Shown here in pieces: positions 11,593-34,504 of a DNA stretch of 49,190 nt. The DNA comes from a virus. The stretch covers positions 1-49,190 of IMG/VR virus record IMGVR_UViG_3300020442_002423. The stretch is one strand, 5' to 3'. The notes under the pieces were generated by a model. The model was given only the letters and a program-made list of their open reading frames with translations, made no database searches and had not been told where the DNA came from. Position numbers and translations under genes: made by a program. How positions within the stretch are numbered: position 1 is the first letter of the stretch; each line of letters begins with the position of its first letter.

Positions 11593-11840
11593 TTATCTTC
11601 CTCTGGTAATTTAATTACGTTTTCGTTTGCAAGCATATTATCTTTGATATCGTATACTTGCTCTGTTTTGATCATATTAATAATTGTATTTGTAAGACTA
11701 ACTTCGTTCCGCAAATAACCTATTTTACGTTGTAGTTCTTCTAGTTCTTTCAAATAAAATTCTAATTCTTGTTCCTTACGCAACTTTTGTTCAATAAAGT
11801 CGCTTATCAAAATCAGCTTCTGTTCTTCACTCAACTTCAT
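11589..11840 (-). CDS. coiled-coil hypothetical protein
   Basis: An 83-aa protein. Residues about 10-50 are strongly heptad-like and rich in Glu, Lys and Leu (KLRKEQELEFYLKELEELQR). Both ends show ATGA-type 4-nt overlaps, with gp43 upstream and the cytidylyltransferase downstream, so it is co-translated with them. Function unknown. Confidence 0.65.
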   Translation of the reverse strand: MKLSEEQKLILISDFIEQKLRKEQELEFYLKELEELQRKIGYLRNEVSLTNTIINMIKTEQVYDIKDNMLANENVIKLPEEDK

Positions 11841-14533
11841 GTATCTCCAAAATCAAATAGACTGCTAAAAGTATTGTTTTGTTTTGTGCTATCTAAGTCA
11901 TAGTTTAGCACACCAATAAGGTTGTCTAGTTTATTATCAATAATTGTTGCTTCCATTGCGTCATCATCAAATGGCAGTTCTTTGAACCAGTCTGGAATAC
12001 GTAGTTCATCTGTTGGATACGCAACACTGGTATATCCCAGCGGATTCTGTTTTAGTTTGCAAACAATAACCTTCATACCATCTACAATCTCTTGCGAATA
12101 CTTGTCACCATTCATACGCTTTAGTGTGTTCCAGTTGATGCTGGCTCTTACATGTCCTGGCATGTTTGCTTTACCTTGCTTTTCTTCAAGACGCTGATAG
12201 TGTCCAATCTTGTTTGCACGTTTAGGAGCACCTTTCTCAAAGCCCGGCCGCTGTTTAAAGTCCCTACGGAAGTCTGTAATTCTATCAAGGATTTGTTTTT
12301 CCGGAGTTTCTAGTAGTACCATCATTAGCACTTCACTTAGAAATTCTTGCATAAACAAAGGTGTGTCTGATCTACGCAAGTCCAAGCCCATTGCTTTTAC
12401 CTTGCCCGGTTTGCCATCTGTATCACTTCTAAAACCTTCTACATCATACACTAATGCCGCATAGCGTTTCTTTGTAATATACAATCCGCTTTCAGCAACA
12501 ATCTCTCTACCTGCCGCAATAACATCTGAACGGCTCTTTGGACAATGGAATGCATCTGCCATAAAGTCTTGGAATGTGCTATTTGCTTCTTCTGCTACTT
12601 GATCATACAATGTAATTACATTTTCTTTATTCCAAGGAATAGCACCACTGTCAATTTGTTCTTTGAGAACAGGATATGCACTAAAGTACACAGAATCTGT
12701 ATCACCATAAATTACACTTTTACCTACATGATCATATTCACCTGTGATAACTTTGTTTACTTCTGCACTCATGTGTTTAACAATAGTACGACCTGTCAGT
12801 GTAGTAGATTGTCCAATACGTTTATCAAAGAATCTACACCCTGGATTAAGGATAGCACCATACAAACTGTTCAAGTTAATCTTTTTAACAAGTTGTCTTT
12901 TGTCCCAAAAAGCAATCTCAATATCATTGCCTGCGTCTTTGGCCTTTTTAAGTTGTGCTTGTAGTTCTTTACGTTCTGCATACCAACGCTTAAGAATCCC
13001 TGGAATAACACCCTCAAATTCTGTTGTAAAGATTGTACCATTTGAACTTAGCATCCACGGCACATTACTATCAAAAATAAGTTTGTAAATTTCTGCACCA
13101 CTCATAACTTGAGTGTCGCCATTTTCAAAATCAACCGTTAATGCAACATCTTTACGCTGTTCCATAACTGCTTCATATTCTTCTGTAGAGAATCTTCCTT
13201 CCCAACTGCCTGCAAAAGACTTTTTCTTAAGCGACATGTCTTCATGCACACGAGCTTCTGATATGTCAGGACGTATTTGTCCTATAATAGTTTCTGGAGC
13301 CATGTTCAATGCACGAATCACACTAGGATACAGACTGTTCAAGTCCATTGAACCAATCCATTTGTGAACACCTTTTTTAGGAAATGCAACATAAGCACCA
13401 GCCGCCGCTGTGTTTTCATCATCACGCTTTGGGCGATTAGGAACTTGTAGTCCTCTATGATGTGCTTCGTTGATAATTGCTTGTTCTGTAACTGCAACAG
13501 CACCCATTGTGGTCTGTAGCAAAACAGTATTTGCGTGTGCTAGTTCGTTACTAAGATCAATAAATCTTAGTTTTTTGTCCAGCTTGTCCAGTAGTGCAAC
13601 GTCTTGTCTGTTGTATTCGATGAATGTTTCGAAGTCATTGTTATAAAGTTGATCGAGCGTACCTTCATAAACAGTTTTCTTTTCGCCAACTTCAAGTTCT
13701 CCAATAGCGTCAAGCCGATATGTGTGTCTTTCTTCATATGTGTATTTACGATATAATTCCAAACTATCTAAATGCACTCTGCCTATGAAGTCATAGGTTT
13801 CAGCTGTTTTACCATATTTTTCATATTCACGTTTTTTAGGAAGTTGTTTCCACAAACAAAAACGTCTTGTGTCATCTGTACTCAGTACACGTTTAATTCT
13901 ATTAACAGTATAAGGAACATCATAGCCTTCACTGTTCCAGCCACTGTGAATATCTGCATCTTCAATTAAATCAAGAAATGTTTGAAGCATTTGACGTTCA
14001 CCATTGCCATCTTTGTCGTTTGTAAACAAGATAACATCATCGCCCCATCTATCTTTACACATCTTTTGTGCATCTTCAAACCGCATTGTCTTTGGAGGAA
14101 CTGCAAGTGTGATAAGTGCATCTAGCCATTGTAGATGTACAGTGATAGCAGTGATCGGCATAAACGGATCACTTGGATCAGCAAATCCACGCTCAGGATC
14201 AAAGTCAGTTTCAATATCCCAAAACGCAATGTTTAGTTTAGGAGCATCTTGATTAAGATAGTTTTCACTCAAACATTGAAAGATTGGATTTACATCACTT
14301 TCAAATAGTTCTTTGCTTTTGTTAATTGCAAGTTCTTTACGGAAGTCTTTAGTGTTCTTACATACGATACGTGTAAGTGGATCACCATAAACACTTTTGT
14401 ATTTGCCACGTTCGTCTTTATAATAAAATGTATATTTGGCTTGATATTCGTGGAACTGTCTTTTTCCGTCTTTACGTTCTACAACACGAATAATATCAGA
14501 ATCGCGATCAAAGAAAGCGTCTACGTAACTCAT
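11837..14533 (-). CDS. 43: family B DNA polymerase, gp43-like
   Basis: An 898-aa replicative polymerase, the same length class as T4 gp43. The 3'-5' exonuclease motifs are intact: Exo I AFWDIETDF (Asp106, Glu108), Exo II HSGWNSEGYDVPY and Exo III YNRQDVALLD. Polymerase motif A is DLNSLYPS, motif B is the NSLYGA region, and motif C is VIYGDTDSVYF. The C-terminus has a short hydrophobic/acidic tail (FSSLFDFGDT) suited to clamp binding. SD GAGGAG lies at 14539-14544. A consensus promoter at 14606-14634 and a palindromic leader precede it. It probably works with gp45 and gp44 in this window. Confidence 0.96.
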   Translation of the reverse strand: MSYVDAFFDRDSDIIRVVERKDGKRQFHEYQAKYTFYYKDERGKYKSVYGDPLTRIVCKNTKDFRKELAINKSKELFESDVNPIFQCLSENYLNQDAPKLNIAFWDIETDFDPERGFADPSDPFMPITAITVHLQWLDALITLAVPPKTMRFEDAQKMCKDRWGDDVILFTNDKDGNGERQMLQTFLDLIEDADIHSGWNSEGYDVPYTVNRIKRVLSTDDTRRFCLWKQLPKKREYEKYGKTAETYDFIGRVHLDSLELYRKYTYEERHTYRLDAIGELEVGEKKTVYEGTLDQLYNNDFETFIEYNRQDVALLDKLDKKLRFIDLSNELAHANTVLLQTTMGAVAVTEQAIINEAHHRGLQVPNRPKRDDENTAAAGAYVAFPKKGVHKWIGSMDLNSLYPSVIRALNMAPETIIGQIRPDISEARVHEDMSLKKKSFAGSWEGRFSTEEYEAVMEQRKDVALTVDFENGDTQVMSGAEIYKLIFDSNVPWMLSSNGTIFTTEFEGVIPGILKRWYAERKELQAQLKKAKDAGNDIEIAFWDKRQLVKKINLNSLYGAILNPGCRFFDKRIGQSTTLTGRTIVKHMSAEVNKVITGEYDHVGKSVIYGDTDSVYFSAYPVLKEQIDSGAIPWNKENVITLYDQVAEEANSTFQDFMADAFHCPKSRSDVIAAGREIVAESGLYITKKRYAALVYDVEGFRSDTDGKPGKVKAMGLDLRRSDTPLFMQEFLSEVLMMVLLETPEKQILDRITDFRRDFKQRPGFEKGAPKRANKIGHYQRLEEKQGKANMPGHVRASINWNTLKRMNGDKYSQEIVDGMKVIVCKLKQNPLGYTSVAYPTDELRIPDWFKELPFDDDAMEATIIDNKLDNLIGVLNYDLDSTKQNNTFSSLFDFGDT

Positions 14534-15784: not shown

Positions 15785-15977
15785 GTAGTTTCTGAAAGGC
15801 TTCTTCAAAACCTTCTTCGTAGTCTGCTATAGGAGCACCATTGCTTCCGTCAATCCATAATCTTTTGAAATATCCGTTTTGTGATGAAATAACAGTCTCG
15901 TGAGAAGTATTTAAGTGTCCTTTGACCAACCAAAATAAGCGATAGGCTTCTTTGTTATTTTTTATTTCTTCCTGCAC
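15768..15977 (-). CDS. 69-aa hypothetical protein with GTG start
   Basis: The open frame extends to 16109, but that part overlaps the real gene at 15955. I place the start at the GTG at 15977, behind AAGG, giving a protein that begins QEEIKNNKEAYRLFWLVKG after the initiator, has a NGYFKRLWIDGSNGAP middle, and an acidic helical end. Overlap with the upstream gene is 23 nt. A later TTG start is possible. Function unknown. Confidence 0.5.
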   Translation of the reverse strand: MQEEIKNNKEAYRLFWLVKGHLNTSHETVISSQNGYFKRLWIDGSNGAPIADYEEGFEEAFQKLLDKYK

Positions 15978-16239
15978 AATGGGCCTTCTGACTAAATCCT
16001 TTCGGATTGTTGCAATTAATGGAACGCTTGTACTTACGTGTCCACTTCTCTTCGACTGACTCGCCCTTTTTCTTTTTAGCCATGTTTGTAGCAATAGCAT
16101 AGATCGCACCTTCTGGATCCATACCTTTTTCTTTAGCCCATTTTGCTATACTTTTTTTGGCTTTTGGTTTGTCAAGGATTTTGTCAGCAGTCTTATGTGC
16201 TTTACGGATTGTTCTTTTGTCTAGTTCAGCGAAACGCAT
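15955..16239 (-). CDS. basic protein with C-terminal two-Cys tail
   Basis: A 94-aa very basic protein. N-terminal MRFAELDKRTIRKAHK leads into a helical KKSIAKWAKEKGMDPEGAIYAIATNMAKKKKG segment (given here only by its residues 29-59). The last 20 residues are CNNPKGFSQKAHCAGRNKK, two Cys in a basic loop. The first half resembles small phage helical domains. The C-terminal module recurs in kind in three nearby proteins (16242, 18046 and 22761 genes). It is a likely virion- or DNA-associated protein; function unknown. Confidence 0.65.
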   Translation of the reverse strand: MRFAELDKRTIRKAHKTADKILDKPKAKKSIAKWAKEKGMDPEGAIYAIATNMAKKKKGESVEEKWTRKYKRSINCNNPKGFSQKAHCAGRNKK

Positions 16240-16241
16240 GA

Positions 16242-17069
16242 CTACATCTTTACGCAGTTGTCGACAGTTTTACCATTCTTCTTTTTGGTGCCCATACGCT
16301 TGTAGCCTTTCCAACATACTTTACCATCTACGCCTTTTTGCTTTTCTTCTGGTAGAGTTTTATAACTTGGCTTACCACATTCTGGACATGTTTCTTGTGC
16401 TTCTAGAACTTCATGCACACTTTCAGCTAGACGTCTTGCAAGTTCTGTTTTGTAAGCATCTTCTGCCATACCTGCATGTTTCGCCGCCATGTGCTTTTTA
16501 TATTTCTTTGTGCCTTTTTTGTGTGGACTTTTACCTTCCACGGCAACTAATTTAATTTTATTTCCACAACATTTACAAGTGTCGCCTACTTCACTAAGTT
16601 TATGACCGCCTTTGCAATGATCACATTTATCTTCATCGCAACCGCAAGTTGCTTGCTTTGCTTCTTTTGCTTCGTTTGTTGTTTCGTCAAATTTTGTATC
16701 GTAATCTAGAGCGTGATATACTGATCCAATATAGTCTGCGGCTTTAGTAATTTTAGATTGTTGCCAACCTTCCATACCTTGTGCTTCGGACATACCTTTT
16801 AGCATTTCATGTAGTTTGATAGCGTATTTTGCAATTTTGTATAGTTCAGCACGAGCCATTTGTATTTCATGGTCTTTCTCTGCTACCATAGCTAGATCGC
16901 CTAAACCTTCATTTGTAGATTCTTTTTTTGCAGTCTTAGCCGCATTTTCCCAATCTTGTTTTGTAGGTGCTTTAGGGTGGCCTTTCTTACGACTTGTGCC
17001 AGCCTTCTTACGTTTGTTCACGTTGTAATAAAGCCCTTTTGATTTTTCTGCAATTTGCTCTTGTTTCAT
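16242..17069 (-). CDS. DUF5872-like multi-Cys protein with C-terminal basic tail
   Basis: A 275-aa protein. Residues about 10-40 (KGLYYNVNKRKKAGTSRKKG onward) look like the DUF5872 domain. A central helical segment includes KITKAADYIGSVYHAL. Three Cys clusters follow: CGCDEDKCDHC, CKCCGNK and CPECGK, probable zinc knuckles. The end is CWKGYKRMGTKKKNGKTVDN then CVKM, the two-Cys basic tail type. The N-terminus MKQEQIAEKSKG weakly resembles a capsid-targeting peptide (IAE). A late-type octamer lies at 17091-17098 and SD CCGGAGTAC precedes the ATG. Likely virion-associated. Confidence 0.65.
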   Translation of the reverse strand: MKQEQIAEKSKGLYYNVNKRKKAGTSRKKGHPKAPTKQDWENAAKTAKKESTNEGLGDLAMVAEKDHEIQMARAELYKIAKYAIKLHEMLKGMSEAQGMEGWQQSKITKAADYIGSVYHALDYDTKFDETTNEAKEAKQATCGCDEDKCDHCKGGHKLSEVGDTCKCCGNKIKLVAVEGKSPHKKGTKKYKKHMAAKHAGMAEDAYKTELARRLAESVHEVLEAQETCPECGKPSYKTLPEEKQKGVDGKVCWKGYKRMGTKKKNGKTVDNCVKM

Positions 17070-17090
17070 TGTGTACTCCGGATTACAATG

Positions 17091-17098
17091 TATTTATC
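17091..17098 (-). promoter_or_regulatory. late-promoter octamer GATAAATA
   Basis: Minus-strand GATAAATA followed by CATT, 21 nt upstream of the ATG at 17069, with an SD between. It resembles T4 late TATAAATA and recurs ahead of other structural genes here. Confidence 0.6.
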
Positions 17099-17294
17099 TT
17101 TTTATAGGTTTGCCGCCCATGATGTTGTCTTTAACATCTAGTGCATTTTTAGCAGTTCCGTCTGCATTTTTACGTTGCGGAGCTACTGGCACACCTTTTT
17201 TATCACGTTTTATCTTTTGCTTAGCCGCAGGTGGATTAGCTACTACAGCTACATCTCCTGCTGACATTCCTGTTGCAAATTCATTTAGTCTCAT
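17094..17294 (-). CDS. small basic phage protein
   Basis: A 66-aa protein starting MRLNEFATGMSAGDVAVVAN, then Lys/Ala/Pro-rich to a PIKR end. MRLNEF has the L-x-E pattern of T4 gp21 protease sites near the N-terminus, though followed by Phe rather than Ala or Gly. It overlaps the 60-aa upstream gene by 14 nt. Possibly a small internal head protein; unproven. Confidence 0.6.
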   Translation of the reverse strand: MRLNEFATGMSAGDVAVVANPPAAKQKIKRDKKGVPVAPQRKNADGTAKNALDVKDNIMGGKPIKR

Positions 17295-17463
17295 TTTCTT
17301 TATCCCTTACGAAAATACCTTCGCCTTTTTCGTATTGTATGTATTTAGCGTCTTTTATAATGATTTCTTTGCTTTTAATATGACTGTGAGGACACATTAA
17401 AGTTACCCATAACCCACTATCATATACACATGGTTGTATATATTCACCATTAATTATGGTCAT
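17281..17463 (-). CDS. 60-aa hypothetical protein
   Basis: A short protein with a beta-like N-terminal half, a LMCPHSHIK segment that could bind metal (Cys-x-His-x-His), and a charged end. It overlaps the upstream oxygenase-like gene as ATGA, with AGGAGAA SD in that gene's end. Function unknown. Confidence 0.55.
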   Translation of the reverse strand: MTIINGEYIQPCVYDSGLWVTLMCPHSHIKSKEIIIKDAKYIQYEKGEGIFVRDKENETK

Positions 17464-18026
17464 TTAAGTAATTCTCCTGCTTTATACATACGCTGTAGAT
17501 CTTTAGTTTCTAAATCCATATGAAAACTACAACCAAGAATAAATCTATCCTCTGGTGTTGCATTTGTTACACCATGCGGTACTCTTGTGTCAAAACAAAT
17601 AGGTACTGTGTAACTTATTTGATTTTCAATATCACTATGTGGATAGAACCTGCTTTCAGGAACATAATCAAAATCCTGTGATGGGCTTATTACTGTAACC
17701 GGATCTGTCCATTCGTAATGATCTAAACTGCTATTAGCAAAGTCGCCACAGATAGGAATGTTAATAGTACATCCGCTTTCATAATCTGTGTGTGGTCCTA
17801 TAATATGTTGAGATTTAACTCTGTTAAAATTGACACGGACGATAATGTCGCCTGCGTTTTGAAAAATTCCGTCTAATACATCTAATGTATCATCATCTGG
17901 CAAACCTACATAGAACTTAAAACGTCCTGTGCCAAAGTGACCCCATGTGTCACAGTTTGCTTTTACTTTTTGTGTGAAATGTTCTTTGTCTATTTGTAAG
18001 TCTGGAAGTAAAAAGTGTTCTAGCAT
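17460..18026 (-). CDS. 2OG-Fe(II)-oxygenase-like protein
   Basis: A 188-aa protein. IIGPHTDYESGCTINIPI has a His-x-Asp metal motif in a strand-rich context. VPHGVTNATPEDRFILGCSF supplies the distal His and, about ten residues later, Arg for 2-oxoglutarate. This fits a cupin-fold 2OG oxygenase, such as aspartyl/asparaginyl hydroxylase-like proteins. Target unknown. SD AAAGGAGTACC precedes the ATG. Confidence 0.65.
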   Translation of the reverse strand: MLEHFLLPDLQIDKEHFTQKVKANCDTWGHFGTGRFKFYVGLPDDDTLDVLDGIFQNAGDIIVRVNFNRVKSQHIIGPHTDYESGCTINIPICGDFANSSLDHYEWTDPVTVISPSQDFDYVPESRFYPHSDIENQISYTVPICFDTRVPHGVTNATPEDRFILGCSFHMDLETKDLQRMYKAGELLK

Positions 18027-18042
18027 TGGTACTCCTTTGCTA

Positions 18043-18050
18043 TATTTACG
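18043..18050 (-). promoter_or_regulatory. weak late-octamer variant CGTAAATA
   Basis: Minus-strand CGTAAATA followed by TAGC, about 17 nt upstream of the oxygenase-like ATG at 18026. It differs from GATAAATA at the first two bases and lies over the end of the upstream gene, so it is only a candidate. Confidence 0.3.
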
Positions 18051-19581
18051 ACTTTTTCTTACGGCCAGCCTTCATATTGGCACACCAGTGATACATCTTT
18101 GCACGTTCACCGCTTGCATTCTTGGCTTTTTTACGTAGGCTTGTTACACTTCCATCGCAACTTGCACCTGCACGTTTTACTCTACCTGGACGACTTTTGC
18201 CTTTACGCTTACCGTCAGCAAAGTTTTCGCTCATTACTTCGTCTAAACTTACATCAAGCATATGCACAATAGCATATTCGCTGTCAAATAAACGTAGTGC
18301 ATCATATCTATGATGTCCGTTTACAATATTACCATGTTTGTCTATTGTAATTGGAGCATAGTCATCTTCTGCTACACGGAAAATTTGATTGAATAGTTTT
18401 TTGAATTTACGTTTCTTTTGTACAGGACGTAGTTTACTTAATTTAATCTTACCTAAACGTCCTTCGTTCTTAATTTGTGGCGGTTCAATACCTTCATCTT
18501 GAATATGTGTATCTTGATATCCTTCAATGTCATCAACTTTATATCCTAAACGTGTCAGTTGACGCATAAGATATTTCATTTCTTTTTCGCCTGCATAAGG
18601 TGCAACAACAATATCAGGTTCACCTGGATTGCTATTGTCAGGCATAGATTTAAGGTTAGCCATATTAACACCTAATTTTATGAAATCATATGCTGTGTCA
18701 GCACCAACTGCAAAACTGTTTTTAGGATTAGGAATGTGATTGCCTTCTTCTACTGGTTCTTCCATTGCTTGTTTAATTTGTTTTGCTGTACGTTCAAATT
18801 TGTGATCTTTGTGTTTAAATCCAATACCACCTGCGGCTTCCCACTTATTAATATTACTACCAAAGTCATCAATCAGTATGTTTGGAGTACCGTCTGGTTG
18901 TGTAGCATACTTTCCTTTGTCAGCATCAATAATAACTGCTTCTGGTGGAAAGAATCCTAAGTTCTTTGCTACCCATTCTTTTTTGTGAGGAATTGCTTTT
19001 TTGTCTCCTGCTAATGGAGCACTTAAAATTTTATATTTGCCTTTGACTTGTTTGATCAAACCTAATAAGTTTTTAGCATTTGCAGTCATTGGTAGTTCTA
19101 ACCAAAACTTTTCATCATCTCTAATTGCTTGTAGTGCAGGCTCAATAGCATCACCTTTGATTTCTCTCCAATGTTTGCCTGTAATTTGTTCCCAACGACC
19201 AAAGAAGTCCGCTAGTACACCATCCATATCTACATAGATCTCTGATTTTTTATCTATTTCTCCTAAGGCTTCTAGCATATAGTCGTAGTATACACTATCT
19301 TCGGTAGTTTTGTCAACTGATTCTTTAACCATTCCAAGATTGTAAAGAACGTTTGTACTAGATCCTTTAACTTTTTTGCTAAGTGTTGGCGGACGTCCGT
19401 CTTTGTCTACAGTATTACCGAACTTTTTAGCCTGCTTAGGTATTTCATTTGTATCAACATCAACAGTTGTGTTCACACCTTTTACAATACGTCCTTGTTC
19501 ATCCATACGTCTAAGCATATGTTTGAAACTGCCCTTCTTAGGAACTTTATTTTCAATATCTTTTATGCTATTGAACTTCAT
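18046..19581 (-). CDS. fusion: 5'(3')-deoxyribonucleotidase-like HAD + ParB-like domain + basic tail
   Basis: A 511-aa multidomain protein. After a basic N-terminal region (1-110), a HAD domain has IYVDMDGVLADFFGRW (Asp-x-Asp), YKILSAPL and NILIDDFGSNINKWEAAGG, matching 5'(3')-deoxyribonucleotidases. Residues about 300-370 hold another alpha/beta segment (PDIVVAPYAGEKEM). A ParB/sulfiredoxin-like segment follows, with PITIDKHGNIVNGHHRYDAL. The C-terminus is a basic module with Cys in RAGASCDGSV and MYHWCANMK, ending KKKS. The fusion would combine nucleotide dephosphorylation with a DNA-linked domain. The position among putative virion proteins suggests packaging, an inference. Confidence 0.7.
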   Translation of the reverse strand: MKFNSIKDIENKVPKKGSFKHMLRRMDEQGRIVKGVNTTVDVDTNEIPKQAKKFGNTVDKDGRPPTLSKKVKGSSTNVLYNLGMVKESVDKTTEDSVYYDYMLEALGEIDKKSEIYVDMDGVLADFFGRWEQITGKHWREIKGDAIEPALQAIRDDEKFWLELPMTANAKNLLGLIKQVKGKYKILSAPLAGDKKAIPHKKEWVAKNLGFFPPEAVIIDADKGKYATQPDGTPNILIDDFGSNINKWEAAGGIGFKHKDHKFERTAKQIKQAMEEPVEEGNHIPNPKNSFAVGADTAYDFIKLGVNMANLKSMPDNSNPGEPDIVVAPYAGEKEMKYLMRQLTRLGYKVDDIEGYQDTHIQDEGIEPPQIKNEGRLGKIKLSKLRPVQKKRKFKKLFNQIFRVAEDDYAPITIDKHGNIVNGHHRYDALRLFDSEYAIVHMLDVSLDEVMSENFADGKRKGKSRPGRVKRAGASCDGSVTSLRKKAKNASGERAKMYHWCANMKAGRKKKS

Positions 19582-19793
19582 TTTTTACGTCCTCTAAATT
19601 GTGTAGGGCCTGTCATGTAAGGCATGCTGAACCAAAGTTTAAACCAATCTTTATCTCCTGGTTTAAGTCCTAATTTCTTTTCTTTTTTCTTAAGTGCCGC
19701 GGCTGTTTTGCTTGGATTCTCGTCTACTTTGTACTCAGTATATCCTTGGAATTCATTTATACCTGCAAGTTTCTTGAGTGTTTTTATATCCAT
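19578..19793 (-). CDS. small phage protein with IxE N-terminal motif
   Basis: A 71-aa protein starting MDIKTLKKLAGINEFQGYTE. INE-F resembles a gp21-type cleavage site within the first 15 residues. A KTAAALKKKEKKLGLKPGDK basic stretch and an FKLWFSMPYMTG end follow. It overlaps the nucleotidase fusion by 4 nt. Possibly an internal head protein. Confidence 0.6.
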   Translation of the reverse strand: MDIKTLKKLAGINEFQGYTEYKVDENPSKTAAALKKKEKKLGLKPGDKDWFKLWFSMPYMTGPTQFRGRKK

Positions 19794-19795
19794 TG

Positions 19796-20743
19796 TTAAT
19801 CCGCATTTCTAATTTGGTATTTTACACCAACTCTATCAAATAGTTTGCCAGTAGTAGCAATGTTTGTAAGTGCTTGTTTAATCTGTGACATGTAGTCTGG
19901 ATTTTGTTCTACTTTGTTCATAAACTTTTTTGCTTGATCAGGTTTAATAAAAATAAGTTTGCCACTCCATGCGGCACCTTTTCTGTAAAAACTAAGGAAA
20001 TGTTCTTTACCGTCATTTCTTGATGCAATCCAGTCTAATACTTTTAGTTTGTTTGGGTCTTGTTCTTTGACACTATTGTTATCTGTACCTTTGAACAAAC
20101 TAATTTCATCAACGTCTTGTTCATTCTTTACACCCATAGCATTTCTTATAGCGTCATACATTTCTGTTGCTATTTGTGGATTAGCAACAATGCTTTTAAA
20201 ACCTGGCACCTTTTCACCTTTTTCGTTTTTGTAATCTTCAAACTTTCCTTCGATAGCAAGTTGTCTTGCTTTGCTTGCACTTGCGGCTGAAACTAAGTTT
20301 TTAAAAGTTAACATTTCTGCGCCGTCTGAATCAGCATCACGTTCGCCAGCATTTACCACTTTAATGTTATTAAAATTATAATCTGCACCATTGTATTTGT
20401 TTAACAAATTATCAAAGCTACCTGCTCTATCACTGCCTGCTACGTAAATTATGTCTGTGTAACCTAGTTTTTCTAACTTTTGCATCATATCAATAGGTGT
20501 TCGTACATCAACATTTCCTATTTCAATGCCTTTAAAACTTGCTTTTGCAAATCTTACTTTTTGATCAAAACTTAAAGGATCTTTTTTTGAGTTTTGTGTA
20601 TGACTTAAGAATAATAAATGATCACCTGGCATACTTTTAATTTTATCAACAAGTTTAGCATGACCAATAGTAGGCGGATTCATTCTTCCGAACGCTACAA
20701 CAGCCGTTTTACCAGGTGCTTCAAATATTTCTCTTAGTTTCAT
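19796..20743 (-). CDS. nucleotidylyltransferase with capsid-targeting-like N-terminus
   Basis: A 315-aa protein. VVAFGRMNPPTIGHAKLVDK is the HxGH nucleotidylyltransferase motif (Thr-Ile-Gly-His form), IIYVAGSDRAG is the central strand, and SASKARQLAIEG corresponds to the ISSTxxR motif. This fits NMN or pantetheine-phosphate adenylyltransferase-like or cytidylyltransferase enzymes. The C-terminal 110 residues are an extra domain of unknown fold. The first ten residues, MKLREIFEAP, place an I-x-E/A site where T4 internal proteins have theirs (MKTYQEFIAEA). ATGA overlap with the 675-aa gene. Confidence 0.75.
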   Translation of the reverse strand: MKLREIFEAPGKTAVVAFGRMNPPTIGHAKLVDKIKSMPGDHLLFLSHTQNSKKDPLSFDQKVRFAKASFKGIEIGNVDVRTPIDMMQKLEKLGYTDIIYVAGSDRAGSFDNLLNKYNGADYNFNNIKVVNAGERDADSDGAEMLTFKNLVSAASASKARQLAIEGKFEDYKNEKGEKVPGFKSIVANPQIATEMYDAIRNAMGVKNEQDVDEISLFKGTDNNSVKEQDPNKLKVLDWIASRNDGKEHFLSFYRKGAAWSGKLIFIKPDQAKKFMNKVEQNPDYMSQIKQALTNIATTGKLFDRVGVKYQIRNAD

Positions 20744-22767
20744 TTGTATGCGCCTTTTCTAATTAGAGGCATTTCTTCATCGTAAATCTTTTTTGCAAGT
20801 TCACGTGCTTGCTCAAGAGTCATTAAATCTTCCATTGTATTTGCAAGTTGGTATTCTCTGTTGTATGCGTCACCACATGCTCTTATAGTAGGCATCATAA
20901 GTTTTTTAACACTGATTTTTTCATTTGCTTGTATTGCTTTTTGCATATTACATAGCATTGGAAAATACTGTGATCTATACATGTCTTTGTTGTTACGCAT
21001 ATAAATGTGTAAGTCATCTACAATATCAAATGTAGGTCCAAATTCTACGCTAGGTTTCATAAGTGCTTCCTCCACTTTTGCATTCGGATCATTTGTTGCA
21101 GGCTTTTTAGCAGGAACTACTGTTGCCTTGCCATCTACACCAGCAACCATATCATTGCCTGTCGCACTTTTAACAGTGTCTCCTGCCTTAATGGCTTTTG
21201 CAATTTTAAATTGTTCGTTAGATAGAGCACCTAAAACTTTAGCACCTTTATCAACTTCTACAATATTTCTAATAGTTGTGCCGCCTTGAATATAACTTCT
21301 ATATTGACATAGAACTTTACTTTCGCCTAGGCTGTTTGCAATGCTTTTAACTTCGGCTGGGCAATCGTCACGTGATATTAATTCTTTGTTAGGTTTTACT
21401 AAAATTTGTATGTACATTCCATTATCGCCTGTTGCAGTTTTTACGCCAGTGCTTTCTAAATTAAAGAATGTCATTAAATTATAAAACGGCTGTGCAAATC
21501 TTAATTCTACAAAGTCGTTAGATGCACCAAAGTCAATAATAGCTACCACAACATTTTCATCACCTACAGTAAGTGTAGCGGCTCTGTTCTCTTTGTCAAC
21601 ATTTTTGCCGCTATGATAAAGTAAACCTTTTTGTAAATGTTCTAAAAAGTCAACTTCACCTTCTGTTCTATCGCCACGTAGATGCCCTTCAATTTTTTCT
21701 GCGGCCCAATCGTAAGTTTTTTTAATAGGACCATTTAAAATCATTTTAGTTATTTCGTTAGTAACAGGAACTTTACCTTTTTCGTCAGCAACTTCTTTAT
21801 AAAGTTTATCCCACTCACTCTTGTATGAACTTGGAAGATCATATGCAAAATTTTGTTTCCAAAACAGTCTTAAATTCTCAAATGGCTTACCACTTGCTTG
21901 ACCAATCTGCGAACGACCACTACCTGCTTTCAAACTTAGTAGGCTTAGAACTTCTGTTTCTTTACCTTTTACTTCTAATTTTAAATCAACTTTAGTAAGG
22001 TTCTGGTTTTCTGCTTCTGCTCCATCTGATGTTACTTCAATGGTTTGTTTTACTTCATCTGTGTAATATTCTTGAATTCTTGTAACAGCATTTTTTGGTG
22101 CTTCACCTGTATTAGCGTAATTTGTACACTTTTCGATTAGCTTGTCTAACTTTTTACCAGCATCGTCTGATAAACCTAACATCTTTGCAGTCTTTATACC
22201 ATCGCCGTCGTTTTCAAATAATGTTTTTAATGCTTTTGTGTCACCACTTGGTACAGTGATTTTGAGTTGCAAACTATCTTGTGTACGATCAACAACATCT
22301 AAGCTGATTGTATTGTCACCTTTTGCGATAAACTTTTTGCCTAAATCGATAACTTGTGCAGAATCTAGTTTTGCAGATGTATTACTAAATTTTCCTGCGA
22401 TAGCAAGTCCTAGCACACCTTCTGTAACATTACCAACATTAACTGATACAGAAACTACATCGTCTTTAGTAAATTTTTTCTCAATTTTATCAATTTGAAA
22501 TGTAACATTATCTTCACCATCTTCGCTTCTACCCACAGCAAATGGTGCTTTCCCTTCACCGTCATGACTTTTAATTATGTCAATAGCTTTTTCTTTTGCA
22601 TTGTCAGGAAAAAATACTTTTACCTTATTTTTATCTGAATCTGTAACATATAAAGGACCACCATTTTCGATAGCAGAAATAATATCTGGAATATATTTTC
22701 CTGATTTATAATACTTGTTAGAAACAACTGCTTCGGCAATGTGTTTAAAATCCCTAAATGCTACCAT
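20740..22767 (-). CDS. 675-aa virion-type protein, possible PD-(D/E)xK nuclease
   Basis: A large protein of unknown role. The N-terminus MVAFRDFKHIAEAVV contains IAE/A, identical to the T4 IPIII cleavage context. Near residue 275-300 TKVDLKLEVKGKETEVLSLL precedes SLKAGSGRSQIGQ. Acidic strand, acidic/hydrophobic strand, then Lys-Ala-Gly with a Gln is typical of restriction-endonuclease folds, but assignment is tentative. The C-terminus (about 590-675) is helical (MEDLMTLEQARELAKKIYDE). It overlaps genes on both sides. It may be an injected protein acting on host DNA; alternatively a scaffold or structural protein. Confidence 0.55.
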   Translation of the reverse strand: MVAFRDFKHIAEAVVSNKYYKSGKYIPDIISAIENGGPLYVTDSDKNKVKVFFPDNAKEKAIDIIKSHDGEGKAPFAVGRSEDGEDNVTFQIDKIEKKFTKDDVVSVSVNVGNVTEGVLGLAIAGKFSNTSAKLDSAQVIDLGKKFIAKGDNTISLDVVDRTQDSLQLKITVPSGDTKALKTLFENDGDGIKTAKMLGLSDDAGKKLDKLIEKCTNYANTGEAPKNAVTRIQEYYTDEVKQTIEVTSDGAEAENQNLTKVDLKLEVKGKETEVLSLLSLKAGSGRSQIGQASGKPFENLRLFWKQNFAYDLPSSYKSEWDKLYKEVADEKGKVPVTNEITKMILNGPIKKTYDWAAEKIEGHLRGDRTEGEVDFLEHLQKGLLYHSGKNVDKENRAATLTVGDENVVVAIIDFGASNDFVELRFAQPFYNLMTFFNLESTGVKTATGDNGMYIQILVKPNKELISRDDCPAEVKSIANSLGESKVLCQYRSYIQGGTTIRNIVEVDKGAKVLGALSNEQFKIAKAIKAGDTVKSATGNDMVAGVDGKATVVPAKKPATNDPNAKVEEALMKPSVEFGPTFDIVDDLHIYMRNNKDMYRSQYFPMLCNMQKAIQANEKISVKKLMMPTIRACGDAYNREYQLANTMEDLMTLEQARELAKKIYDEEMPLIRKGAYK

Positions 22768-23330
22768 TTTCTACAACTCCAGTAACGTGCTTTTGTTCTT
22801 GGACCTGGGTTGTCGCAGTTGTGTCTTGCACGGAACGAACGTCTACGTGCTGGGTTTGACTTTTTGATCTTCATGTTAGGGTCACCAAAGTTAACTTTCT
22901 TAATATTTTTAGTCTTTGGATCTCTTACATATACTTTGAACTTCTTAACATCGCCGCGCATAGGTTTGCCAAGTTTAACTTTGCGCCCTTGATATTCTGC
23001 TTCGTCCATTTCGTCATCTTCGTTGAACCACATAACACCATACTCTTCAAAAAAGTCATCACCGTCATATGTTTCTTCGTCTAAATTCTGTTCTTCATCT
23101 GTTGAGATTTCAATATCAAAATCTTCATATCCTTCTGATACCATATATGCAGTAAGTCTGTCTGCATATTCATCAGCTTCTTGTTCGCTAAGTTCTCTCG
23201 CTAGTGGAATATGAAATACTGTAGCACCTTGCTCTGATTCTAGTACATACGATTCAGGAAAAACTGACTCGTCTAAACCTTCTACTAGTTCGTCTTGTTT
23301 TTCCATTACTATTCTTACAAAATGTTCCAT
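22761..23330 (-). CDS. acidic phage protein with C-terminal two-Cys tail
   Basis: A 189-aa protein starting MEHFVRIVMEKQDELVEGLD at the ATG at 23330, behind GAGGTTAAAG; an upstream TTG frame is rejected. Residues about 30-125 are strongly acidic with LARELSEQEADEYADRLTA. The last 60 residues switch to basic (GKPMRGDVKKFKVYVRDPKT) and end FRARHNCDNPGPRTKARYWS then CRKW. The acidic-to-basic layout and two-Cys tail resemble phage core or internal proteins. Function unknown. Confidence 0.6.
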   Translation of the reverse strand: MEHFVRIVMEKQDELVEGLDESVFPESYVLESEQGATVFHIPLARELSEQEADEYADRLTAYMVSEGYEDFDIEISTDEEQNLDEETYDGDDFFEEYGVMWFNEDDEMDEAEYQGRKVKLGKPMRGDVKKFKVYVRDPKTKNIKKVNFGDPNMKIKKSNPARRRSFRARHNCDNPGPRTKARYWSCRKW

Positions 23331-23338
23331 CTTTAACC

Positions 23339-23701
23339 TCAATGATTTAATAATATCTGATTAATTTGTCCTTGTGTGTATGTAACATACACCCTTACCC
23401 AAACAAAGTTTCCTGTAAAGTTAAATGCAGGAGCACTTGTTTCGCCATCATCATAGGATACAGTAACATCGCCATTATCTAGGGTGATATCAAACCAGTC
23501 ATCACTTGTAGGTGTTACTGCAAGTGTTCCTTGCATTTTTAAATCACCTATAAAGTCGTTCAAATCATACTGAACTGTGTGAAAACCGTCACTACGACCG
23601 TAGTATCCGTCACCTTGAAATTTATCTCCAGTTACAGTCTGAACAGTACTGTCTCCTGGATGGGTTGTTTGTGATAAGATTGTTACTGTATTACTTGGCA
23701 T
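23339..23701 (-). CDS. beta-rich structural protein, possibly leaderless
   Basis: A 120-aa beta-rich protein (MPSNTVTILSQTTHPGDSTV start; YDLNDFIGDLKMQGTLAVTP middle; FVWVRVYVTYTQGQINQILL end), typical of small phage virion proteins that carry a display or decoration fold. The ATG at 23701 has no SD and lies 4 nt after the late octamer GATAAATA at 23706-23713, so its message may be leaderless. An in-frame TTG farther upstream also lacks an SD. Confidence 0.6.
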   Translation of the reverse strand: MPSNTVTILSQTTHPGDSTVQTVTGDKFQGDGYYGRSDGFHTVQYDLNDFIGDLKMQGTLAVTPTSDDWFDITLDNGDVTVSYDDGETSAPAFNFTGNFVWVRVYVTYTQGQINQILLNH

Positions 23702-23713: not shown

Positions 23714-24377
23714 AACTTTGTACGTTGTTGACAAATTTGTCTATACGGGTAATTTCGCCACCTAAGACTATTTTAACTAGATTTAATACCTTTTCATTTT
23801 TTACGTAAAAGTAGAATCCTTTAACATACTGACCTTGTTTGATGCACTCTAAAAATGTACTACCAATTTTAACTTTATCACTATTTTTTTCAAACCAATA
23901 TGCTACATTAGGGTCTACAGTTGCTCCTACAGTAACCTTAAATTCATATTTGCTTGGTTTTAGTATTATATTAGGCTCAAGTAGATTTTTTTGTGATTCT
24001 GTTGGTTTACTAATACTTACAATTCTTTTTTTGAACCTGTAAATTAATTGATCTAGTTGTCCTTCATCATTACTATACCAGTTTAAATTCATTTGTTCTA
24101 CTCTAAGTGAATAACTGTTATAGTCTTGACTTGTCAAATAGTTATATAAATTCAAAGTGTCTTGAAACTCGTCTACAGTTATAGGTCTACTATATCTATA
24201 ACCCTTATTCCAAATAAGTTCTTCAGAACCCTGTTCAAATTGATGTTGTAGATCATCTAAAACATCTCTAGTATGGTTAAATTTTTTCTCTCTAAATATA
24301 GGAGCCATAGTAAAGTACATGCTTGCACGAAGCATGTACTTGTCATAAAATAATTTTTCGGTATTAAGTAGTTTCAA
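23712..24377 (-). CDS. 221-aa hypothetical protein with TTG start
   Basis: I place the start at the TTG at 24377 (KLLNTEKLFYDKYMLRASMY after the initiator) because AGGAG lies 7 nt upstream, whereas the more upstream codons at the edge of the frame have none. Helical N-terminal half, then FKVTVGATVDPNVAYWFEKN and a beta-rich end (YVKGFYFYVKNEKVLNLVKI). It overlaps clpA by 14 nt. I do not recognise the family. Confidence 0.6.
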   Translation of the reverse strand: MKLLNTEKLFYDKYMLRASMYFTMAPIFREKKFNHTRDVLDDLQHQFEQGSEELIWNKGYRYSRPITVDEFQDTLNLYNYLTSQDYNSYSLRVEQMNLNWYSNDEGQLDQLIYRFKKRIVSISKPTESQKNLLEPNIILKPSKYEFKVTVGATVDPNVAYWFEKNSDKVKIGSTFLECIKQGQYVKGFYFYVKNEKVLNLVKIVLGGEITRIDKFVNNVQS

Positions 24378-26604
24378 CCACTTGCTCCTTTTTAGTTTCA
24401 AGAGCAATTTCGTTGTCTTTTACAGTAATGTGTAATTTACCGCCATCTTTAAGGTCACCAAACAACATAAGTCTAGATAAAGGACGTTTAATATCTTTAT
24501 CAATTACACGTTGCAACGGTCTTGCACCCATTTTACGATCAAAGCCTTTGTCTACCAACAGATCGAGTGCTTCGTCGTCAAGTTTGATTGTAATATTTTT
24601 ATCTGCCACCATGTTTTTAAGTTCTACTAGGAACTTACCAACAATTTTCATCATCACTTCTTTGCTTAGTTTACCAAATGTAACAACACCGTCAAGTCTA
24701 TTTCTAAATTCTGGAGCAAAGAAGTTTTTAAATGCACCATCTTCGTATGTTTCTTTTTCTAAACTATCAAAGCCAATGGCGTTTGTATCACTTTCTTTTG
24801 CACCTAAGTTACTTGTAAGGATTAGTACACAATTTTTTGCATCTGCTTCTTTACCATTTGAACTTCTTACCTTACCGTGATCCATTACTTGTAGTAAAAT
24901 TTGTGATACATCAGGGTGTGCTTTTTCTATTTCGTCTAATAGCAACACACAATTAGGATATTCTTGTAATTTTTCTATTAATAATCCACTAGTATCTTCG
25001 TGTCCTACATAACCTGGAGGAGAACCAATCAATTTTGAAACTGTGTGTTTCTCTTGATATTCACTCATATCAAATCTAACAAGTTCAACACCTAAATGTG
25101 CGGCCAGTTGTTTTGCAGTTTCTGTCTTACCTACGCCTGTTGGCCCCATAAACACAAAACTACCGATAGGTTTATTAGCATCTTTAAGTCCTGCTTGTGC
25201 AACAAGTATTTTATCAACAATACCTTCTATTGCTTCATCTTGACCATACACACTTTTCTTAAGATTGTCTTCAAGATTTTTTAAGTTATCATTTTCTTTT
25301 TCTGCAATCTGTTCTTCAGGCATTTTTACAATTTTACTTAATTCAAATTGTATTTGTTCTGCACCAATAGTACGTTCTGTACCTTCTTCTAACAAATTAA
25401 ATCTACTACATGCAACATCAATCAAATCAATTGCTTTGTCAGGCAATTTCTTATCACTTTGGTACTTCACACTAAGTTTAATTGCTTCTGCAATCGCTTC
25501 ATCTGTGATTGTAGCACTATGAAAGTCTTCATAATACTTTTTAATACCTTGTAAAATGTCATTGGTAATTTCTGATGAAGGTTCGTCAACTGTTACACGC
25601 TGGAAACGGCGCATAAGAGCTCTGTCTTTTTCAAAAAACTTGCGAAACTCTTCCCAAGTTGTACTTGCTACAACTTTGATATTGCCTTTTGTAAGTGCAG
25701 GCTTTAGCATATTAGCAAGATCGTTTGCACTATCACGTCCTGCCGCACCTGCACCACTCATCATGTGTGCTTCATCAATAAACATAATAGTTTTGCCTTT
25801 TTTCATAAGTCCACGCAAAACTAATTTAAATCTTTCTTCGAAATCACCTCTATATTTAGAGCCTGCAAGTAACGATCCAATGTCTAGATTGTATACTTCA
25901 TACTCTTGTAAAAATGGAGGTACATTTTTGTTCACAATATTATGTGCAAGTCCTTCTGCAATAGCAGTTTTACCAACACCTGGGTCACCAACTAGTAAGA
26001 CATTGTTTTTATTACGGCGACCTAATGCAAGAGCAATGCTTTCTAGTTCCTCAGCACGACCAATTACAGGATCAACTTTGTTTTTCTTAACTTCTTGGTT
26101 AAGATTAGTTGTAAATTGGTTCAAAGCTCTTTTTGCTTCATTACTTAATTCTTCATTTTCTATATCTTCCATGACTTCTGTCTGAATAAAGTCTTGGAAC
26201 TTTTCTTTTTCTACACCTGCTTTAGCAAGATAGTAGGCACTGATTGCTTTTTTCTCTGCAAGTATACTCAATAACACATCTGGTAGTTCAATATTACTAC
26301 GTCCACTAAAAAGGACCTGTGTAAATGCACGATTCAAAACACGTTCTACTGCACCAGTTTTTTTTGGCTTGTATTTGTCTAATGTAATCACTAATTCATC
26401 ACAGTTTTGCTTAAGGTGATGCTCTAAATTGCTCTTTATATATTCTGGGTCTGCACCATACCCTTGAATAGTTTTGAACATATTTTCTTCACAAAGCATT
26501 GCAAACAAAAGATGTTCAATAGTAACATATTCATGCTTTAACTTTTGTGCATCTTTAATTGCTTTTTCAAAAACTAGTTGTAGCTCTTTGCTCGGCTCTA
26601 CCAT
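24364..26604 (-). CDS. clpA: ClpA-like Hsp100 AAA+ unfoldase
   Basis: A 746-aa protein with full ClpA architecture. The N-domain is residues 1-75 (EYVTIEHLLFAML). The first AAA+ domain has Walker A GDPGVGKT (206-213) and MFIDEAHMM. The second has GPTGVGKT (487-494), LLLDEIEKAHPD and sensor-type TSNLGAK. The C-terminus has GARPLQRVI. An IGF tripeptide at 610-612, just before FFAPEFRNRLD, matches the ClpP-docking loop (IGL/IGF), so it may recruit host ClpP. Length matches ClpA (about 750). Its target could be host or virion proteins. A promoter with extended -10 precedes it. Confidence 0.93.
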   Translation of the reverse strand: MVEPSKELQLVFEKAIKDAQKLKHEYVTIEHLLFAMLCEENMFKTIQGYGADPEYIKSNLEHHLKQNCDELVITLDKYKPKKTGAVERVLNRAFTQVLFSGRSNIELPDVLLSILAEKKAISAYYLAKAGVEKEKFQDFIQTEVMEDIENEELSNEAKRALNQFTTNLNQEVKKNKVDPVIGRAEELESIALALGRRNKNNVLLVGDPGVGKTAIAEGLAHNIVNKNVPPFLQEYEVYNLDIGSLLAGSKYRGDFEERFKLVLRGLMKKGKTIMFIDEAHMMSGAGAAGRDSANDLANMLKPALTKGNIKVVASTTWEEFRKFFEKDRALMRRFQRVTVDEPSSEITNDILQGIKKYYEDFHSATITDEAIAEAIKLSVKYQSDKKLPDKAIDLIDVACSRFNLLEEGTERTIGAEQIQFELSKIVKMPEEQIAEKENDNLKNLEDNLKKSVYGQDEAIEGIVDKILVAQAGLKDANKPIGSFVFMGPTGVGKTETAKQLAAHLGVELVRFDMSEYQEKHTVSKLIGSPPGYVGHEDTSGLLIEKLQEYPNCVLLLDEIEKAHPDVSQILLQVMDHGKVRSSNGKEADAKNCVLILTSNLGAKESDTNAIGFDSLEKETYEDGAFKNFFAPEFRNRLDGVVTFGKLSKEVMMKIVGKFLVELKNMVADKNITIKLDDEALDLLVDKGFDRKMGARPLQRVIDKDIKRPLSRLMLFGDLKDGGKLHITVKDNEIALETKKEQVVETT

Positions 26605-26669: not shown

Positions 26670-27494
26670 TTATTTTTTTGCCAATCTCTTCTTCATTTTT
26701 TGTAGTTGTATTTTAGTGTTATCATCTATGCCTCTTGGTACTATACAATTTATCGTTACAATCATATTTCCCTTTATATTTGTACGAATATCGCTCATTC
26801 CGTAACCAGTTACAGCAAATTTTGTGCCAGGTTGTGTGCCTTGTGGTATGTTTATCTTAATTTTATTTCCTTCTATAGTAGTAACTTCAACACTTCCGCC
26901 AGTTATAAAGTCAAATACATCAGCATCAATGCTTGTATGCAAGTTATGTCCTTGTACACTAAACTTGCTATGCGGTACAACTTGTACTAATACATACAAG
27001 TCTCCTCTTCTATTATGGTCTATATATTCTCCAAGACCTGCATAGCGTATTTTTATACCATCTGTAGCACCAGGAGGTATTTTAATATCTGCTACTTCTT
27101 CTTTACCTGATCTTAACCTATAACTTGCTATTAATCCTTTTCCTGTATAAGCCTCTTCAAGTGTTACTCTTGCCGCAATAGTAACATCAGGGTTCATTCG
27201 TTGTCGTTGAGGTCTACCAAAACCTTGTCCAAAGCCAAACTGTGTAAATAAATCTTCAAAGCCTCCCATATTTCCTGAATTAAATTGCATTTCTTGCCAC
27301 TCAGGTTGAGGGTTATCATACTGCTGTCTTTTGTTTGGATCTTTTAATGTTTGATATGCTTCATTTATCTTTTTAAATTCTTCCTCATTTCCTCCCCTAT
27401 CAGGATGGTGTTCCATGCTTTTCTTTTTAAAAGCCTTTTTTATATCTGTGTCGGAAGCATCTTTAGATATGCCGAGGATAGAATAATAGTCCAT
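26670..27494 (-). CDS. DnaJ/CbpA-like J-domain co-chaperone
   Basis: A 274-aa protein. The J-domain (1-60) has MDYYSILGISKDASDTDIKK and the HPD triad in MEHHPDRGG. A short Gly/Phe-like linker (FTQFGFGQGFGRP) and two C-terminal substrate domains follow (IKIPPGATDGIKIRYAGLGE, INIPQGTQPGTKFAVTGYG). No CxxCxGxG zinc finger, so it is a CbpA-like type. It would stimulate host DnaK. The ATG has no SD; a GATAAGTA octamer ends 5 nt upstream. The gene directly upstream of clpA suggests a phage chaperone/unfoldase pair. Confidence 0.9.
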   Translation of the reverse strand: MDYYSILGISKDASDTDIKKAFKKKSMEHHPDRGGNEEEFKKINEAYQTLKDPNKRQQYDNPQPEWQEMQFNSGNMGGFEDLFTQFGFGQGFGRPQRQRMNPDVTIAARVTLEEAYTGKGLIASYRLRSGKEEVADIKIPPGATDGIKIRYAGLGEYIDHNRRGDLYVLVQVVPHSKFSVQGHNLHTSIDADVFDFITGGSVEVTTIEGNKIKINIPQGTQPGTKFAVTGYGMSDIRTNIKGNMIVTINCIVPRGIDDNTKIQLQKMKKRLAKK

Positions 27495-33932: not shown

Positions 33933-34504
33933 TTAACGACCTCCTCCAACCATGTGGTTAGTATATATTTGTCTCCTTTTAACGGAGTATTACCCCTATG
34001 CGTATATGTCCAATCTGCTGGCCACATAAGCAATCTATTCTTACGAGCGTTTATACGCTTCTTTTGATATAAGAATTCTGTTTCTCCACCATCTGAAAGA
34101 GTATTAAGATATAATTGCACAACAACTTTACGTGAAAGATCGCTACCCATACTTTCATAGTGCCATTGGTGATAGCCACCTCCTTCTTCAATACGTTTCA
34201 TTTTTAATTGTTTTGTTGCATATTCTTTTTCTTGTAATATGCTAAACTTTTCCATATAGGCAGGAATAATTTGTTCTTTTAAAACTTGGAAAAAATATTG
34301 TGAGTAGTGTGTATGTACATCAAATACTCTTACAGGATCTAACAAATATAATTGTTCGTCATCTCGTAAATGTTTAGGCAAGTATTTTCCTTGAAATGCA
34401 CCTAAGTCATTATAAGTATGATAATATTTAATAAGTTCGTCAATCCATTTCTCATCAAAAAAATCTTCAAACTGGCCTATAAAGCCATCAAATTCTACAT
34501 TCAT
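33929..34504 (-). CDS. prolyl-4-hydroxylase-like 2OG-Fe(II) oxygenase
   Basis: A 191-aa protein. [13 protein letters not shown] gives a possible His/acidic metal pair, [20 protein letters not shown] is the core strand set of P4H-type oxygenases, and [20 protein letters not shown] supplies the distal His and the Lys that binds 2-oxoglutarate. Common in T4-like marine phages; target unknown. It overlaps gp44 as ATGA. Confidence 0.83.

Follow-up and report, generated by a model that had tools for sequence, protein, structure and literature searches.

Candidate T4-type capsid-targeting leaders on a block of exchangeable proteins in a marine T4-superfamily phage

The IMG/VR record IMGVR_UViG_3300020442_002423 (49,190 bases, hereafter the window) comes from a marine T4-superfamily phage, a virus of bacteria, and has nearly all of its genes on the minus strand. 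We find that a block of its genes very probably (we estimate about 80%) encodes proteins with T4-type capsid-targeting sequences, short N-terminal leaders that would load them into the prohead core and be cut off after a glutamate. In T4, the internal proteins IPI, IPII, IPIII and Alt carry capsid-targeting sequences cut by the gp21 protease (Mullaney and Black 1996, reviewed in PMC9026906), and gp21 cleaves after L/I-x-E (PMC9026906). The original prediction for this DNA, that a contiguous set of enzymes carries leaders of this type, is well supported by an enrichment across protein families, by an invariant junction Glu, by the gp21-type protease and gp23 junction of the relatives, and by cyanophage virion proteomes. 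Packaging of the block proteins in the head is likewise well supported by inference.

The five N-termini named by the original prediction all lie at the positions given, on the minus strand. An exact I-x-E/A had been claimed for a nucleotidylyltransferase and for a 675-residue protein, and the sequence does read MKLREIFE/A and MVAFRDFKHIAE/A (IFE and IAE; a slash marks a candidate cut). The near matches proposed for three neighbours, INE/F (gene at 19578), LNE/F (17094) and IAE/K (16242), are also present, with the reservation that IAE/K may be a first site only, since the junction found throughout that family lies deeper, at ESTNE/GLGDLA. The contiguous set turns out to be both larger and less complete than proposed: two more members had been overlooked (22761-23342 and 18046-19581), and leaders of this type are missing from two genes within the run (17281-17463 and 17460-18026). 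Translation of the open reading frame 22761-23342 probably begins with the ATG at 23330, and the leader read from there is in the exact register of T4 IPIII, which we define as hydrophobic residues at positions 4, 7 and 8 and Glu at position 10.

Relatives were collected as 22 contigs reached through the nucleotidylyltransferase and 160 further loci reached through gp43 and the first gene of the block; 75 loci were usable. Over these homologous loci we compared the protein families of the block with those of its flanks, each family counted once and clustered on residues 15-180, which excludes the leader as the cause of the families. L/I-x-E within residues 6-16, the criterion of the original prediction, scored as the majority state of each family, is found in 32 of 90 families of the block and in 24 of 165 of the flanks (p=1.3e-4). 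A broader T4-register pattern, which also admits the shorter window form MKLREIFE and was in part chosen post hoc, is found in 22/90 block families and 6/165 flanking families (p=9e-7). Leaders of unrelated block proteins include MKIRELLEG, MKVYEIIEN, MRFYEFVTEK, MKASEFITEG, MKNFKEYLSES, MSKTFTDYLKET and MKIHDIISEA. In the 75 relatives, the place of the block is filled by many unrelated genes with short and variable leaders. Proteins that stand in relatives where the window has the 675-residue protein begin in the exact T4 register (MVAFRDFIQEA, MVAYIDFIKEA, MVAFKEFLFEY). The strict pattern [DE]-hyd-hyd-x-E, where hyd is a hydrophobic residue, gives no clear excess when applied to every gene of the window and of the related genome G022, and about 15% of flanking families have L/I-x-E near the N-terminus; signal and noise are separable only by the comparison of block with flanking families and by the exact T4 register.

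In three window families the leader sequence varies, and in two of them also its length (up to 109 residues), while the start of the mature protein is conserved. For the nucleotidylyltransferase, Glu is at residue 8 in all 32 distinct homologue N-termini; in the AlphaFold model of the window protein, residues 1-10 have low confidence (predicted local distance difference test, pLDDT, 52) and the fold begins at residue 13. For the fusion of a nucleotidase with a ParB-like domain, the homologue alignment places the junction at residue 28, MKFNSIKDIENKVPKKGSFKHMLRRMDE/QGRIVKG, and, despite otherwise different leaders, 35/35 distinct homologues have a Glu no more than 3 residues before GRIVKG. In the 16242-17069 family, a Glu is directly before or within 2 residues of GL[AG][DE][LM]A (36 of 36 distinct homologues). 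Judged from these alignments, the pattern is what would be expected for a cleaved, exchangeable propeptide. The same type of leader is common to two classes of nucleotidylyltransferase (AFGRMNPPTIG and MPGGFHPFHP).

T4 and the cyanophages provide an external test of the register. As a control, the exact register selects five of the 284 called open reading frames of T4, which are ipII, ipIII, alt, gp24 and 61.1. The first four are gp21 substrates in the T4 literature. Gene product 61.1 (L227, 18966-19130), annotated as a hypothetical protein, begins MKTFKEFIKE/D, an exact internal-protein leader. T4 IPI is outside the exact register, as are the five named window genes. For cyanophage S-CREM2, with a virion proteome published with coordinates (PMC10665884), the exact register is found in 6 of 219 proteins, and five of the six are among the 28 non-structural or hypothetical proteins detected in virions by mass spectrometry (Fisher p=2.4e-4). 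These tagged virion proteins are an S-adenosylmethionine (SAM) hydrolase (MKDFDSFLEE), gp13 (MKDLHSFLTE), gp136 (MQTFSMFFSE), a cytidylyltransferase (MKNFSSFLTE) and an APH-like kinase with a GTG start (printed VKRFDAFLTE). The gp23 junction of S-CREM2 is LLTE/A. We also observe in the S-CREM2 virion Cas9 (L221, 7704-10313) a T4-like motif, LRFASFMAE/A, at residues 19-25, outside the register.

Cytidylyltransferase homologues of the window enzyme, both detected in virions and tagged, are found in S-SM1, S-SCSM1 and S-CREM2. The S-SM1 enzyme (T4-GC190) has the leader MKKFSAFLNE/A and the S-SCSM1 NMNAT has MKSFLQFLKE/A; both were detected in virions (PMC3037559 and PMC9602691, respectively). The leader forms can be set side by side as MKLREIFEA, MVAFRDFKHIAEA and MKNFSSFLTEA. 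A kinase of S-CRM01, reported in virions, begins MISFDQFLSE. Because relatives of one of the tagged enzymes are found in virus particles, the tags suggest themselves as a route of ready-made enzymes into the capsid, and they probably explain the enzymes carried there by such phages. The accessible text of the cyanophage proteome papers describes enzymes as present and perhaps carried in the virion, and names no packaging signal. Our full-text literature searches, with most subscription journals beyond reach, found no paper linking capsid targeting to cyanophages.

A search for the gp21 protease gene elsewhere in the genome, as the original prediction had proposed, finds none in the window but does find one in relatives. 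The window covers an incomplete part of the genome of this phage, and PF03420 searches of short contigs were uninformative. Of the 9 largest related records, 6 have both an S77 (gp21-type) protease and gp23, and gp22 lies between the two wherever the region was read. In the relatives' gp23, alignment and motif place KYLSE/A, RYLAE/S, KYLAE/T or KYLKE/N directly before the region conserved in mature gp23. From this motif and the resemblance to T4 we infer that gp23 would be cut at its L-x-E junction.

Block proteins also have features in common with these head proteins. Only two proteins of G022 contain SAG-x-[VI]-A: gp23, where it lies at the junction (RRYLAE/SATAGATSAGNVATL), and a 57-residue block protein (LRELIE/TASAGATSAGSVAAV) that is the homologue of window 17094-17294. 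The ungapped score between the two is 56; the next best protein of the genome scores 35, and the highest among 2000 shuffles is 38. In the window itself, the 17094 protein resembles the gp23 junction weakly (its score is reached by 172 of 2000 shuffles), so the case for gp23 mimicry in this family rests on the homologues. The motif [LIM]xxLAG[IVL] is confined in G022 to the C-termini of gp22 and a 590-residue protein, and in the window to 19578-19793; it is found in 47/555 block proteins and 0/787 flanking proteins. The copy of the gp23 junction and the LAG motif may both serve docking to the core or shell. As a parallel to the 17094 family, two small cyanophage proteins detected in virions, S-CREM2 gp160 (L222, 28342-29235) and S-SCSM1 ORF97 (L232, 48121-48306), have N-termini that resemble the N-arm of mature gp23 (GFTGAAAPEGPVAGYDPL and GFTGSSAAEGPTAGYDPL).

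These shared motifs also bear on an alternative in which the leaders are docking peptides of scaffold-associated proteins that serve head assembly or maturation instead of reaching the host as effectors. In its favour, motifs of structural proteins (the gp23 junction and the gp22 C-terminus) recur in two block families, and a T4 late-promoter-like octamer precedes one block gene and many structural genes. The octamer GATAAATA has five copies in the window (17091, 23706, 31893, 38531 and 41604), all on the coding strand and 5-33 nt upstream of gene starts, a count that is not significant. In G022, NATAAATA is enriched upstream of genes in the manner of T4 late promoters (33 cases, with 8 on the opposite strand), and TATAAATA and CTTAAATA show no enrichment in the window. 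An assembly role fits poorly with products that are enzymes (the nucleotidylyltransferase and the NT5C nucleotidase), for which we know of no such role, with a cargo that turns over among close relatives, and with the SAM hydrolase and kinase among the tagged virion proteins of S-CREM2. We regard this alternative as unlikely.

Several observations weigh against the loading of the block proteins by capsid-targeting leaders. In the window alone the leader motif is not above chance (3 of 67 genes), and among window genes only 22761-23330 is in the exact T4 register, the five named genes being shorter or longer variants. No gp21-type protease lies on the 49-kb fragment. Jumbo phage Atu_ph07 keeps the surrounding gene order and lacks the tagged block. 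In 50 kb of S-SCSM1, two proteins in the exact register are not listed as virion proteins, and several hypothetical proteins of S-SCSM1 and S-CREM2 detected by mass spectrometry have no leader. The accessible text of two cyanophage proteome papers considers that such enzymes may be co-purified contaminants. For this phage, the packaging of block proteins is a prediction from relatives and cyanophages.

Were contamination the explanation of the virion detections, the tagged enzymes would be ordinary intracellular proteins and the leaders coincidental amphipathic N-termini rich in Lys, Leu and Glu. The proteome authors raise contamination themselves, in the text accessible, and L/I-x-E is a short motif of which flanking families have their share; but the enrichment at the level of families, one invariant Glu amid a changing leader and the match of five out of six tagged proteins to the virion are together hard to attribute to chance, and we consider this explanation very improbable. 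Also very improbable is that the leaders, without being cut by the prohead protease, target another phage structure (the replication complex or the tail baseplate). The block adjoins gp43 and the clamp loader, and not head genes, but its junctions match the one in gp23 of these phages, and known gp21 substrates have the T4 register.

Under T4-type capsid targeting, the block would encode phage head cargo, each cargo protein with its short leader. Hydrophobic leader residues at fixed spacing would bind the prohead core, a gp21-type protease would cleave after the Glu that ends the leader, and the enzyme would be left loose in the head beside the DNA. More speculatively, the cargo might enter the cell with the DNA and have a role early in infection. 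Leaders and cargo appear to evolve separately, such that one kind of leader is found on unrelated enzymes and a given enzyme has different leaders. Two further signals on block proteins may derive from the head: the copy of the junction between the gp23 prosegment and N-arm, and the LAG motif with which the scaffold protein gp22 ends. Table 1 gives the coordinates of the block, its leaders and its neighbours.

Table 1. Features of the block and of its surroundings, in window coordinates
Feature	Position	Strand	Basis or remark
Putative cargo block	15955-23342		
275-residue protein with C-terminal Cys/Lys module	16242..17069	-	phrog_4359
Leader MKQEQIAE of the 275-residue protein, then K	17046..17069	-	Second junction ESTNE54/GLGDLA
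GATAAATA, T4-type late-promoter-like octamer upstream of 16242-17069	17091..17098	-	
66-residue basic protein, putative mimic of the gp23 N-terminal arm	17094..17294	-	Likeness in relatives
Leader MRLNE of the 66-residue protein, then F	17280..17294	-	Continuation resembles relatives' gp23 junction
Deoxyribonucleotidase (NT5C), ParB-like domain and C-terminal Cys/Lys module	18046..19581	-	PF06941 above cut-off; phrog_2643, phrog_620
28-residue leader of the nucleotidase-ParB fusion, predicted cut E28/Q29	19498..19581	-	Homologue alignment
71-residue protein	19578..19793	-	Block family, 52 distinct members
Leader MDIKTLKKLAGINE of the 71-residue protein, then F	19752..19793	-	Carries LAG motif
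Nucleotidylyltransferase (CTP_transf_like; PPAT/NMNAT fold)	19796..20743	-	PF01467, Foldseek
Leader MKLREIFE of the nucleotidylyltransferase, predicted cut E8/A9	20720..20743	-	Homologue N-termini, AlphaFold model
675-residue protein	20740..22767	-	Matches no Pfam/PHROG family
Leader MVAFRDFKHIAE of the 675-residue protein, then A	22732..22767	-	Sequence; slot-mates in relatives
189-residue protein ending in HNCDNPGPRTKARYWSCRKW module, first gene of block	22761..23330	-	phrog_7595; homologues on viral contigs
Leader MEHFVRIVME, then K	23301..23330	-	Exact T4 IPIII register
gp43	11837-14533		
ClpA-like ATPase	24364-26604		
DnaJ-like protein	26670-27494		
gp44-like clamp loader	34501-35415		Identity from sequence, not from search

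The nucleotidylyltransferase matches PF01467 with 22.5 bits (cut-off 21), has the H-x-G-H-type motif as NPPTIGH, and its model matches PPAT/NMNAT structures in Foldseek with an E-value of 2e-5; the predicted fold is clear. Both this protein and the nucleotidase-ParB fusion are probable packaged enzymes, and the 71-residue protein is probably core-associated cargo. For the 675-residue protein we find no homologue in isolated phages and none by a scan of viral contigs with the protein itself, and its relatives were reached through the neighbouring gene; a second scan, using the homologue from L013, returned the same two contigs again. Its last ~100 residues (window 20740-21039) are a separate gene of ~114 residues in relatives L006, L010 and L011, and its N-terminal domain is swapped between relatives. 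D261 and S278-x-K280 are invariant among seven homologues. The AlphaFold model is poor (pLDDT 55), gives no fold match and does not suffice for calling a PD-(D/E)XK-like nuclease, and the PADLOC defence families have no match to this protein.

Four block proteins end in short Cys/Lys modules that differ from each other: HNCDNPGPRTKARYWSCRKW in 22761-23342, CDGSV...MYHWCANMKAGRKKK in 18046-19581, CWKGYKRMGTKKKNGKTVDNCVKM in 16242-17069 and CNNPKGFSQKAHCAGRNKK in 15955-16239. The HNCDNPGPRTKARYWSCRKW module is also found in Pelagibacter, Roseobacter, Methylophilales and Flavobacterium phages. These modules possibly bind DNA or the core. Proteins of DUF6267/phrog_455 with a ligase-like KWDG motif are found in L117 (9911-10996), L104 (8823-9923) and L219 (23216-24190). 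The two from relatives have the leaders MRYREFKILTEA and MRFAEFRHVLTEA, and the S-SM1 copy is without a leader. In S-SM1 this gene adjoins that of the virion cytidylyltransferase, and phrog_455 also spans a cytidylyltransferase domain.

The isolates closest in gp43 are the jumbo phages Phosso and Atu_ph07, with 44-49% identity. Contigs with a gp43 more than 80% identical to that of the window reach 357 kb, and the phage therefore probably has a large genome of which the window is a piece. Atu_ph07, with its large virion proteome and similar gene order, was a candidate expected to show the block, and it was rejected on the block's absence.

By its sequences, the block would work like the capsid-targeting system of T4, with the differences that the cargo of a single block is broad and exchangeable and that motifs of gp23 and gp22 are reused. 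Like the T4 internal proteins, the block proteins begin with a short leader that has hydrophobic residues at defined positions and ends in L/I-x-E, and differing mature proteins stand behind one kind of leader; as in T4, the relatives have the S77 protease beside gp22 and gp23. Compared with T4, the leaders are much more variable in both sequence and length and are attached to enzymes of up to several hundred residues, collected in a single variable block, some proteins of which also reproduce the gp23 junction or the C-terminus of gp22. The enzymes in T4-like cyanophage virions (S-SM1 T4-GC190, S-SCSM1 NMNAT, and the S-CREM2 SAM hydrolase, kinase and Cas9) provide a homologous nucleotidylyltransferase in purified virions and a leader in the T4 register. 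The capsid-targeting signal of P1 DarB is likewise an N-terminal packaging signal on an injected protein (PMC9024508); the P1 Dar proteins, unlike the block, have no common consensus, and residues 6-10 or the first 30 residues contain the signal (PMC9024508).

A broader proposal, to which we give a little less than even odds, is that T4-superfamily marine phages have a general, modular code for head cargo (a T4-type leader with its junction Glu, the copied junction and N-arm of gp23, and the LAG motif of gp22) and a hotspot of interchangeable enzymes (nucleotidylyltransferases, nucleotidases, a SAM hydrolase, a kinase and even Cas9) that are loaded and delivered at infection. Purified cyanophage particles repeatedly yield enzymes whose way in, or possible status as contaminants, is unexplained. 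A tag that can be read at the N-terminus would be a packaging mechanism, and genome sequence would then predict which phage proteins are carried in the head. The hotspot would be a place to find new host-takeover or anti-defence proteins, and the natural leaders may be usable for loading proteins into phage heads.

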